Assembly: GCF_023250475.1 (NCBI RefSeq)
Contig: NZ_JAHFAQ010000005.1
Span: 1-39,171, forward strand
DNA length: 39,171 nt
From: Sulfuricurvum sp.
Lineage (GTDB): Bacteria; Campylobacterota; Campylobacteria; Campylobacterales; Sulfurimonadaceae
Reading direction: 5' to 3'
The notes under the pieces were generated by a model, which was not told the DNA's origin, searched no databases, and saw only the letters and a program-made list of their open reading frames with translations. Both the position numbers and the translations under genes were made by a program. This document shows positions 2,771 to 20,805 of this stretch, piece by piece (within the stretch, counting starts at the first letter, position 1; each line of letters opens with the position of its first letter).

Positions 2771-3742
2771 ATGGAACTGTTTAAAGAAGATAAAGTCTAT
2801 AATTTTCTCGGAAAAGGGAAAATCTTTTTCGTTGCGTCATTTGTCCTTTTCTTTGTAGCGATAGCGCTTATCGCCACAAAAGGGTTTTCATTCGGTATCG
2901 ATTTTACCGGAGGAACGGTTGTTCAGGTCAAATATCAGGGTGTTGCCCCGATCGATAAAGTTCGAGAAGCACTTGAAAAGAACGAACTCTTTAAACACGC
3001 CGCAGTGAGCGAATTCGGCTCACCTGAAGAGATCGTTATTAAAACAGCGGCATCGACGGACGGTTTGAGTAAAGATATCGGCGATGTTACCCGAGAGATA
3101 CTCAAAGGGACGGGCGATTTTGAGATTCGCCGTGTCGATATGGTCGGCCCGAAAGTCGGTGATGAACTTCGGGTTAAAGGGCTTACCGCGTTTCTTTTGA
3201 CGCTGAGCGCTATTATGGCGATGGTGACATTTCGATATGAGTGGCGTTTCGCGTTAGCGGCCATCATCGCGATTGTTCACGATATCGTTATTACGTTCGG
3301 GTTTGTCTCCTATTTTGAGATCGATTTCAATATCGAAAGTGTTGCGGCATTGCTTATGATTTTGGGATATTCGATCCACGATACGATTATCGTGTATGAC
3401 CGTATCCGCGAGCACATTCAAGAGTCTAAGAACAGCGATTTCGTTATGATCGTCAATGAAGCGGTTTCCCGAACACAGTCACGAACCACGTTGACCTCTT
3501 TAACGGTCTTTTTCGTTGTTTTGACCCTTTTCTTATTCGGCGGAGATATTATGCTCGGCTTCAGTTTTCCAATGCTCGTTGGTGTTATAATCGGAACCTA
3601 CAGTTCGATTTTCGTTGCGGCTCAGCTCGTTGTTTGGACGGGATTCAGTGTCGGACGGTATCGTGAAAAAATGGCGGAGAAAATAAAACTTCAAGCCGAA
3701 AAAGAGAAAATGCGTGCGCAGTTTGAGCAAGGTATCGTCTAA
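2771..3742 (+). CDS. secF: Protein translocase subunit SecF
   Basis: GIDFTGGTVVQVKY and VSRTQSRTTLTSLTV motifs; follows secD. Confidence 0.96.
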   Translation: MELFKEDKVYNFLGKGKIFFVASFVLFFVAIALIATKGFSFGIDFTGGTVVQVKYQGVAPIDKVREALEKNELFKHAAVSEFGSPEEIVIKTAASTDGLSKDIGDVTREILKGTGDFEIRRVDMVGPKVGDELRVKGLTAFLLTLSAIMAMVTFRYEWRFALAAIIAIVHDIVITFGFVSYFEIDFNIESVAALLMILGYSIHDTIIVYDRIREHIQESKNSDFVMIVNEAVSRTQSRTTLTSLTVFFVVLTLFLFGGDIMLGFSFPMLVGVIIGTYSSIFVAAQLVVWTGFSVGRYREKMAEKIKLQAEKEKMRAQFEQGIV

Positions 3743-3747
3743 AATCT

Positions 3748-3817
3748 GCCTCGAAGAGGCTAGCTTTAGTGCCTTAGCGGCTAGCGTCGTCAAAAGGGAT
3801 TTAATTCCTTTTGACGT
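3748..3817 (+). repeat. Structured intergenic repeat, copy 1 (two stem-loops)
   Basis: GCCTCGAAGAGGCTAGCTTTAGTGCCTTAGCGGCTAGCGTCGTCAAAAGGGATTTAATTCCTTTTGACGT. Hairpin A: GAGGC(3756-3760)/GCCTT(3771-3775), 10-nt loop. Hairpin B: CGTCAAAAGG(3788-3797)/CCTTTTGACG(3807-3816), 9-nt loop GATTTAATT. Related to 19108-19170. Confidence 0.8.
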
Positions 3818-3841
3818 TCTATACAGAATTAGGAGTTTTTT

Positions 3842-6289
3842 TTGAATTACACCCCCGCATCGATTGAGGCCAAATGGCAAAAAACATGGAGTACGACTAA
3901 GGCGTATGAACCCTCAAACGACTTTAGCAAACCTAAAAAATATGTCCTCAGTATGTTCCCTTACCCATCAGGACGTATCCATATGGGGCACGTCCGTAAC
4001 TACACCATCGGCGATGCATTCGCCCGTTACTACCGTCAGCAGGGGTTCAATGTTCTTCACCCGATCGGATGGGACAGTTTCGGAATGCCGGCGGAAAATG
4101 CGGCGATCAAACACGGTGTTCATCCTAAAAAATGGACCTATGAGAATATTGCTACGATGCGCGGAGAACTTGCGGGTCTTGGGCTATCTTTCTCCGAAGA
4201 TCGCGAATTTGCGACCTCCAATCCGGAGTATACGGCATTCGAGCAGGGTTTTATTATCGATATGTTCAACAAAGGACTGCTGTACCGCAAACAAGGTTTT
4301 TTAAACTGGTGTCCGCACGATTTGACCGTTTTGGCGAACGAACAGGTGGTTGACGGCGGATGCTGGAGATGTGGAACGGAGATCGTCCAAAAAGAGATGT
4401 ATCAGTACTACCTCAAAATCAGCGATTACGCCGAAGAGCTCCTCGAATCACTCAAAACACTTGAGGGGAAATGGCCGAAGCAGGTTCTGACGATGCAGGA
4501 GAACTGGATCGGAAAATCGTACGGCTTGGAGTTCGGGTTTAAACTTGACGATGAGAGCGAGGCTGCGCTCGGTGCCGTGTACCAAAGTTTTGATGTCTTT
4601 ACGACCCGTCCCGATACGATTTACGGAGTGAGCTATGCGGCGCTTGCACCGGAGCACGAGATTGTTCGCCATATGCTCTCTTTCAATCTTTTGGATCAAG
4701 CCGCTGCCGATGCGATCAAAGCGATGCAGCGTGTCAGCGCTCGTGATCGTGCCACAAGTCCGAAAGAGGGTGTGGCTCTGGGCATTAATGTTATCCATCC
4801 GCTAACCGGGGCTAAAATCCCCGTCTGGGTTGCTAATTTCGTTTTGACCGATTACGGCTCCGGTGCGGTTATGGCCGTCCCTGCCCATGATGATCGTGAC
4901 TATGAGTTCGCAACCAAATACGATCTTCCGATCAAAGCGGTCATCTACCCATCTGAGGGTGAATTACCGCTTGGATGTGCGTATACGGAAACGGGAATAT
5001 TGCGTGAGAGTGGAGAGTTCAGCGGTTTGGATAACACTACGGCCAAAGCTTCGATCATGGACCATTTTGAGACTCAAAAACTGGGTAAAAAAGTGATCAA
5101 CTTCCGTCTTAAAGACTGGGGGATCAGCCGTCAGCGCTATTGGGGTGCTCCGATTCCGTTGATCCACTGTGAATCGTGCGGAATCGTCCCTGAGGACAAA
5201 GCCAATCTTCCGGTGGCATTGCCCGAAGATGTCGTGATTAACGGCGAGGGCAATCCGCTCGAACATCATCCGTCGTGGAAACACTGTCCTTGTCCAAAAT
5301 GCGGCAAGCCGGCCGTTCGTGAAACCGATACGATGGATACGTTTATTCAGTCGTCATGGTACTTTTTACGTTATACGGTCAAAAATGATTTTAAAGAGGC
5401 ATTGGATAAACAAGCCCTCGATTATTGGATGGGTGTGGATCACTACATCGGCGGGATTGAACATGCGATACTGCATCTGTTGTATGCCCGTTTCTTCACG
5501 AAAATGCTCCGCGATTTGGGATATGTCAACAGCGATGAGCCGTTTGAACACCTCTTGACGCAGGGGATGGTTCTTAAAGACGGTTCAAAGATGTCGAAGT
5601 CTAAAGGAAATACCGTCGATCCGGGAGAACTGGTATCGAAATACGGTGCCGATACGGCGCGGCTCTTTATCCTTTTTGCCGCCCCTCCGACCCAGGAGCT
5701 GGAGTGGAATGACAGCGCGGTTGAGGGGGCATATCGCTTCCTCAAACGATTTGCCGACCGGAGCCAATACGTCAATGTTACCGATACATTACCGATTATC
5801 GATCACAGTACCCTATCCAAAGAGGAGAAAGCTGCTCGTAAAAAGGTGTATGAAGCCCTCAAGCGGGCTCAAGAGGTCTATACCGAACGTCACACGTTTA
5901 ACACGATGATAGCCGGTGTGATGGAAGCAATGAACGCTTTGAACGAACAGAGCAATCGCGATGTATGGACGGAGGGGTACTGGATTTTGACCTCTGTGCT
6001 GGAACCGATTGTCCCCCATATCTGTTGGGAACTCTCAACCAATCTTTTCGGCGGTAAAAATTTCGGTGTTCAAGTGGTTCGCGAAGAGGTATTTGAGGTT
6101 GAAGCTTTGAGTCTGGGTGTATCGATTAACGGTAAAAACCGTGCCACGATTGAAGTCGGAGTGAATGAGTCTCAAGAGACGATCATCGAGATTGCCAAAG
6201 CCTCTGTTGAGAAATGGATAGAGGGGAAAGAGATCGTGAAAGCGATTGTGATTCCCGGCAAGCTAGTCAACCTTGTGATAAAAGGGTAA
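3842..6289 (+). CDS. leuS: Leucyl-tRNA synthetase (TTG start)
   Basis: [20 protein letters not shown] (HIGH-type) and [12 protein letters not shown] (KMSKS). TTG at 3842 preceded by AGGAG (3831-3835). Confidence 0.97.
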
Positions 6290-19052: not shown

Positions 19053-19107
19053 GCTGAAAAAAAACTTAATAGCAAGGAAAAGTGCATTTAAAATATTATG
19101 CTTTGAA

Positions 19108-19170
19108 AAGGGAAGCTTTAGCCCCTTAGCAGCGAGTGTAGCCGGAGGGATTTTATTCCTTCGGCGGTTT
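19108..19170 (+). repeat. Structured intergenic repeat, copy 2 (two stem-loops)
   Basis: AAGGGAAGCTTTAGCCCCTTAGCAGCGAGTGTAGCCGGAGGGATTTTATTCCTTCGGCGG. Hairpin A: AAGGG(19108-19112)/CCCTT(19123-19127), 10-nt loop. Hairpin B: GCCGGAGG(19141-19148)/CCTTCGGC(19158-19165), 9-nt loop GATTTTATT. Confidence 0.8.
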
Positions 19171-19173
19171 CAT

Positions 19174-20805
19174 TTAGACTTTGGATTGGACGGTTATTTT
19201 GGTTGCTTCGAATAGTTCCGCCGCTTTTTGGATCATCGGCTCTTTGAGAACATCGCCGCCGTCAAACTCTTTGATACTGCTCTCATCGCATTGGCTCACG
19301 CAGCTTCCGACACCGATTTCGGCATCTTCTACCATTGAAGCAGGTTCAGGGATACTCGCTTCAGCCGGTTCTTCAACACCAGCGGCAGCTACTTCGGGAG
19401 TCGGAGCTGATTCCTCGGGAGATTTGGTACACCCTTGAGATTTGATCTGGGTATCGATACCGTAAATCTCTCGGACAAACTGTCGGATAATCCCGAAACT
19501 GTTCTTCAATAACTCTTTATCTTCATTTTCCGCACAGCTTTCCCAGGTAAGGGTGGAATTTTCATAAGAGAGGAATGTAACGTTGTTTTTAAAACAGATT
19601 CCCAGTTCGGCACTTCGATCGCTGATCCGTTCACACAACTGCTCGTACGGAGATCTAACCGCCGCAGGGGCAGGGGCGACATGAATAGTAGGGGCTTGGT
19701 CAACATTCATCGGTGCAGGTGCTTTGGTCGGCGTATGGCTAACGCGCGACTCGAGGGATTCGATCATATCGTCGATCTCTTTGATCTTGAGCGCTTCGAT
19801 CATTTTAAACAATACCAGACTCACGACGAACCCGCCGTCGGCATTGATCGCAAAGAGAGTTTTGGCATCGCTCAAGATTCGGAAAAAACGCTCGATCACG
19901 AGAGGACTGAAACGGTGGTCCCCCTCATAAAGGCGCTCTTTGAGATAGGCGATCAGTTCATCGACCACCATCTCCGATTCGTAGGCTTCGAGCTCTTGTA
20001 GCATACCGATGAGTGCTGTGCGGTCTTTGGCAAAAATGGCGTCAAAGAGCCGGCTGATGTAATCGGGATCGAGAAGTCCGAGCATATCGGCAACGGTTTT
20101 AACGTCGACGAACCCTTTGGAATAGATGATGGCCTGATCCATGAGGGTGAGGGTGTCGCGAAGACTTCCCGAACCGCTGCGGGCCAAAATGTCGAGTGCT
20201 TCGGCCTGATATTCGATATTCTCCAAATGGAGGATATGGCTCAGGTGGTGGACGATGTTGGGGTGGCTGATCCGTTTAAACCGAAAATGCTGCGTTCGAC
20301 TGAGAATCGTCGGGGGAAGTTTCAGCGGATCGGTCGTTGCAAGGATAAATTTGACGTATTCGGGTGGCTCTTCGAGGGTTTTAAGGAGGGCGTTATGCGC
20401 CTCTTTGGTAAGCATATGCACTTCGTCGATGATGAAGATTTTGATGTTGGCGCTGGCGGGGCGGTATTTGGTGTGCTCGATCAAATCGCGGATATCATCG
20501 ATTTTGCGGCTTGATGCCGCATCCATCTCGATAATATCAATATGCCGACCTTCGTTTGCCATAACACAGTGACTGCAGACATCGCACGGCGAGGAGGTCG
20601 GGCCGTTTTCACAAATAAGCGATTTGGCAAAAATACGTGCGGTAGAGGTTTTTCCCGAGCCGCGAAGTCCTGAAAAAAGGTAGGCGTGAGAGAGCCGTTT
20701 GGTATCGAGGGCTAGAGAGAGGGTCTGGGAGATACTCTCCTGACCGATGAGCTCCTCGAAACGTCGTGGACGGTATTTTAACGCTAAGACTTCGGATGTG
20801 CCCAA
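19174..20805 (-). CDS. dnaX: DNA polymerase III subunits gamma/tau
   Basis: LALKYRPRRFEELIGQESISQTL, LFSGLRGSGKTSTARIFAKSL, zinc module CDVCSHC, IDEVHMLTKEAHNALLKTLEEPP. Confidence 0.96.
   Translation of the reverse strand: MGTSEVLALKYRPRRFEELIGQESISQTLSLALDTKRLSHAYLFSGLRGSGKTSTARIFAKSLICENGPTSSPCDVCSHCVMANEGRHIDIIEMDAASSRKIDDIRDLIEHTKYRPASANIKIFIIDEVHMLTKEAHNALLKTLEEPPEYVKFILATTDPLKLPPTILSRTQHFRFKRISHPNIVHHLSHILHLENIEYQAEALDILARSGSGSLRDTLTLMDQAIIYSKGFVDVKTVADMLGLLDPDYISRLFDAIFAKDRTALIGMLQELEAYESEMVVDELIAYLKERLYEGDHRFSPLVIERFFRILSDAKTLFAINADGGFVVSLVLFKMIEALKIKEIDDMIESLESRVSHTPTKAPAPMNVDQAPTIHVAPAPAAVRSPYEQLCERISDRSAELGICFKNNVTFLSYENSTLTWESCAENEDKELLKNSFGIIRQFVREIYGIDTQIKSQGCTKSPEESAPTPEVAAAGVEEPAEASIPEPASMVEDAEIGVGSCVSQCDESSIKEFDGGDVLKEPMIQKAAELFEATKITVQSKV

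Follow-up and report, generated by a model that had tools for sequence, protein, structure and literature searches.

A structured intergenic repeat in Sulfuricurvum and other Campylobacterota with an invariant core between two covarying hairpins

In a stretch of Sulfuricurvum sp. DNA of 39,171 nt (hereafter the window; contig NZ_JAHFAQ010000005.1 of GCF_023250475.1, forward strand), an initial annotation had pointed to two copies of one repeat whose stems seemed to differ while still pairing, which raises the question of what such an element is and how it is kept. Both sequences are present, and a covariance model matches both (82 and 59 bits); the repeat was found where it had been placed, although the true element is a few bases longer on both sides (Table 1). 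The model and its alignment were built from 67 sequences that included copy 1, and copy 2 was outside this training set, so that its match represents an independent test. Copies with a named source come from records of Sulfuricurvum, Sulfurimonas, Sulfurospirillum and other Campylobacterota.

Table 1. Features of the two repeat copies in the window and their neighbouring genes
Feature	Positions	Strand	Basis
Repeat copy 1	3743..3825	+	cmsearch 82.4 bits, E 4e-16
Neighbours of copy 1: secF (stop), leuS (start)	3740-3742 (secF); 3842 (leuS)		genes by Pfam
H1 of copy 1: GCCTC/GAGGC, loop GAA (3748-3752 with 3756-3760)	3748..3760	+	family alignment, pair counts
Core of copy 1: AGCTTTAGTGCCTTAGCGGCTAGCGTCG	3762..3789	+	column conservation
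Inner hairpin P2 of copy 1: GCC-TTAGC-GGC	3771..3781	+	compensated variants elsewhere
H3 of copy 1: GTCAAAAGGGA/TTCCTTTTGAC	3789..3815	+	covarying stem
Repeat copy 2	19094..19175	+	cmsearch 58.6 bits, E 8e-11
dnaX CDS, with copy 2 antisense at its 3' end	19174-20805	-	dnaX by Pfam
Core of copy 2, with substitutions	19114..19141	+	alignment to covariance model
H3 of copy 2: GCCGGAGGGA/TTCCTTCGGC	19141..19165	+	alignment to covariance model

The repeat is about 80 nt long and is composed of TCT, a first hairpin (H1; 5-6 bp with a loop of 3-4 nt), a core, a further hairpin (H3; 10-11 bp across the family) and the tail CGTTCAAAT, its ends reading TCTGCC and CGTTYAAA. The invariant 28-nt core, AGCTTTAGTGCC(A/T)TAGCGGC-N-AGCGTAG, contains an inner hairpin, P2 (GCC-NNAGC-GGC), which is almost invariant itself and occurs in the compensated forms GGC/GCC (genome G191) and GACC/GGTC (loci L252 and L346). 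Columns 45-48, directly 5' of H3, mostly read GTAG, with the variants GAAA, GCAG and GTCG, the last of which is carried by copy 1. Copy 2 is partly decayed, with H1, the inner hairpin and the core all affected. A long subfamily of about 120 nt has about 38 nt and a further hairpin inserted after AAGCTTT. A search for an autonomous parent whose two halves enclose a gene turned up only this variant, longer by 38 nt.

This anatomy differs in one respect from that initially proposed. The segment AGCTTTAG, which had been drawn as the loop of an upstream hairpin (hairpin A), is the start of the invariant core and not a free loop, and among the 49 copies in which the 3' arm has changed from GGC, hairpin A keeps its three pairs in only 9, whereas H1, which lies upstream, holds at least four of its five pairs in 46. 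Thus, the conserved upstream hairpin is H1. On the other hand, the second proposed hairpin (GTCAAAAGGGATTTAATTCCTTTTGAC versus GCCGGAGGGATTTTATTCCTTCGGC) was confirmed, with covariation in the family.

The repeat is widespread among relatives of the bacterium. An initial pattern search matched the core in most genomes of the same genus, and scanning with the covariance model revealed further copies both in this genome, which has about 11 in total, and in other Campylobacterota: the repeat is present in 40 of 41 genomes of the genus (with up to 44 copies), in 128 of 151 genomes and 15 of 18 genera of the family, and in 21 of 200 genomes of the class, Sulfurospirillum-like and other Campylobacterota included. 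One genome of the genus with high completeness (G003) has zero copies. Tandem arrangements were also observed, as pairs in several gene gaps of a Sulfurospirillum-like genome (G105; L404, L408), and as a duplication that includes flanking sequence and in which the inner stem is inverted to GGC/GCC (L304 1719-1900; G191:C1:210818-210999). No Rfam family matched above its gathering threshold, in agreement with the initial annotation, which had recognised no named family, and the core string was not found in the literature. Plasmids, phages and viral contigs gave no repeat match, in a set that probably included few relevant plasmids.

Family-wide covariation bears out the proposal that the stems covary, although the comparison of two copies and the hairpin A on which it had partly relied were not sound. 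In 164 non-redundant copies, the top ranks by APC-corrected mutual information were taken by the five pairs of H1 and the majority of those of H3, with values of up to 1.25 against a shuffled-null maximum of 0.10, and covariation was seen at each variable pair of both stems. In addition, there is covariation between columns 46 and 74, which do not form a Watson-Crick pair. Fixed loci were examined in 44 pairs of orthologous copies with flanks 65-96% identical; these are non-independent pairs, with overlap inside orthologous groups. Change amounted to 32% in the loops and 30% in the tail, to 49% in the upstream flank (an upper bound, from an ungapped comparison), and to 2.6% in the core, whose conservation is partly ascertained because the copies were found via the core. 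Stem changes in these pairs comprised 81 compensated doubles versus 31 that break a pair. Orthologous sites located via their flanks were mostly intact or wholly different, and few held decayed copies (for example, L424). Structural selection on the repeat, as first suggested, is therefore strongly supported by the covariation of H1 and H3 together with the compensatory changes at fixed loci, and resident copies are kept under purifying selection, beyond what mobility alone predicts. The existence of further copies, and pairing that is kept more often than broken, are both the reverse of what the initial annotation had named as speaking against it.

Which strand is folded could be judged from the mismatches tolerated in H3. 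Across four neighbour classes and with the characteristic G.T position 56-64 excluded, there were 70 G.T versus 8 A.C pairs; the ratio was 32:0 where the copy is sense to both neighbours and 27:8 where it is antisense. Since G.T exceeds A.C in both gene orientations, one fixed strand folds, whatever the local direction of transcription. The structure had initially been read as acting as RNA or as a cruciform or protein site; the bias marks a single folded strand and thereby argues against the cruciform.

Orientation relative to genes (based, like the neighbour analysis, on simple ORF calls) was evenly divided, with 67 sense and 71 antisense copies. Gene pairs around copies were codirectional in 138 of the 170 that could be classed, the background being 70-74%. 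The copies are located at stop codons, and antisense copies very often carry the stop codon of the neighbouring gene within their tail. No significant replication-strand bias was found (15:14 and 24:14, with origin and terminus placed from sampled GC skew), and no positioned promoter box was found upstream of the copies.

The occupancy of gene junctions is polymorphic. The repeat lies between secF and leuS in three genomes and is absent from about ten others that have these two genes as a pair as well; similarly, of 28 copies in one genome (G013), five are missing from a close relative (G002), in which about 21 can be detected. Instead of a clean pre-insertion site, empty alleles usually have another spacer, and some hold other hairpins. 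No target-site duplication was seen in pairs of filled and empty sites. No near-identical recent copies occurred within the two genomes inspected, and any movement of the repeat is accordingly read from presence and absence only. As separate observations, CGTC-type REP-like palindromes (core CCCGCCTTCGCGGG) occur at sites orthologous to G013 copies (L418, L426, L427 and L391), where a close relative has the repeat at the same junctions, and these palindromes are absent from the window; moreover, leuS (3842-6289 in the window; orthologues L258-L287) exists in the genus as two divergent versions (N-terminal identities 93-100% versus 73-76%) that differ in their upstream genes, a pattern that suggests gene replacement.

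Candidate mobilising or reading factors were also sought. The Y1-transposase family PF01797 was detected in 19 of 41 genomes and gave no match in the other 22, several copy-rich and near-complete ones among them (G013 and G024 included), and none of the 30 PF01797 loci fetched carried the repeat. TnpB (PF07282) was detected in one genome, and a TnpB/omega-RNA relationship was dropped because this protein is absent from the remaining 40 of 41. The search for a shared neighbour gene at clustered copies yielded, at two clusters, ordinary genes (such as sox-like and transporter genes, judged from translations). Neither of the tested transposase families (Y1, TnpB) accounts for the repeat.

The reading that we prefer, with a probability of about one half, takes the repeat as a non-coding intergenic element of the REP class whose active form is a folded single strand, which would be read as single-stranded DNA rather than RNA. 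A putative trans-acting factor conserved in these bacteria would recognise the invariant core, which would be exposed between H1 and H3, the stems mattering only through being paired. On rare occasions, recognition would result in a copy being inserted at a gene junction, facing either way and without target-site duplication, and such a copy would then be inherited vertically and maintained by purifying selection. More tentatively, the repeat might belong to an undescribed Campylobacterota system, in which a 28-nt core between two freely varying hairpins is served by a putative single-strand-reading factor other than RAYT or TnpA/TnpB, and each resident copy has a fitness effect independent of gene and replication direction.

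Several other explanations share part of this evidence. A multi-copy structured RNA, with the + strand transcribed at most copies and the RNA acting in cis or binding a protein, would suit the tolerance of G.T wobbles (with a common G.T position in H3) and avoidance of A.C, the non-Watson-Crick covariation of columns 46 and 74, the further hairpins of the long variants and the purifying selection on resident copies; however, the flanking genes lie antisense to one half of the copies, where a read-through mRNA would contain the wrong strand, and neither an upstream promoter box, an Rfam match nor a poly-U end speaks for it, which leaves this explanation possible but doubtful. A generic role between cistrons, in which any hairpin could stabilise or terminate mRNA irrespective of its orientation, is rather unlikely: the location at stop codons and the replacement of the repeat by unrelated hairpins (CGTC-type REPs included) at orthologous sites fit such a role, but the invariant core and the fixed folded strand of antisense copies would be left unexplained.

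Two further explanations have very little probability. If the copies were dead relics, their stems could be kept perfect by quasi-palindrome template-switch correction instead of selection, a process able to produce compensatory changes (a point of general knowledge rather than a result obtained here); this explanation is already disfavoured, since resident copies show no decay of the core and an excess of G.T over A.C would not be expected from a symmetric DNA process. An ordinary RAYT-driven GTAG REP or an IS200/IS605 miniature element, equally improbable, would be expected from the GTAG tag, the hairpins, the intergenic location and the lack of target-site duplication, but not from transposase loci without a flanking repeat, copy-rich genomes in which the transposase is missing, the near absence of TnpB and the lack of replichore bias.

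The REP-class reading can be set beside several known systems. BOX, ERIC and RUP-type repeats are likewise structured, orientation-independent and intergenic, with a mobiliser that is unknown or indirect; their sequences and taxa are not known to be related to those of the present repeat. Integron attC sites resemble it in that a folded single strand is recognised by structure more than by sequence, but the repeat has no RYYYAAC/GTTRRRY boxes at its ends and occurs as dispersed single copies. A possible likeness of GGCTAGCGTAG to the ops site of RfaH is opposed by the random orientation of the copies relative to genes. Unlike IS200/IS605 elements, with their lagging-strand transposition, the repeat displays no significant replication-strand bias, and TnpB, expected together with TnpA for a miniature element of that group, was detected in one of 41 genomes; the ends of the repeat are not inverted repeats and lack a target-site duplication, in contrast to TIR-type MITEs.

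The closest likeness is to REPs. GTAG REPs are reported to lie mainly downstream of genes and to contain G.T pairs (PMC3733652), and to have long persisted alongside RAYTs (PMC8049555). GTAG REPs and REPINs share with the repeat the intergenic location, mostly after genes, a covarying hairpin stem with GTAG at its 5' foot, G.T pairs, tens of copies and vertical persistence (PMC3733652, PMC2817692, PMC8049555). CGTC REPs are also intergenic palindromes without a known transposase, but their sequence is unrelated and they form a single short palindrome (PMC3733652); in the related genomes examined here, such palindromes sit at gene junctions that the repeat occupies elsewhere. The survey of these REPs found both GTAG and CGTC repeats in a Sulfurovum (PMC3733652), where part of the present family may already have been seen, with a possible overlap at H3. 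Like GTAG REPs, whose palindrome has a GTAG or GYRG-type tag on one side, the repeat mostly carries GTAG next to H3; the tag may also be GAAA, GCAG or GTCG, the repeat spans about 80-120 nt with two main hairpins and a 28-nt core instead of the single 20-40 bp palindrome of GTAG REPs, and no RAYT flanked by the repeat, or otherwise linked to it, was found in the genomes analysed. Its size, second hairpin, core and lack of RAYT linkage set the repeat apart, and we regard it as working like a REP without assigning it to the RAYT-associated GTAG class. The usual account of REP-like repeats makes them by-products of RAYT transposases; with neither Y1 nor TnpB accounting for it, this repeat offers a clean natural data set on what keeps such repeats alive and which protein reads them, and it would add a new structured family to the annotation of many sulfur-oxidising Campylobacterota.
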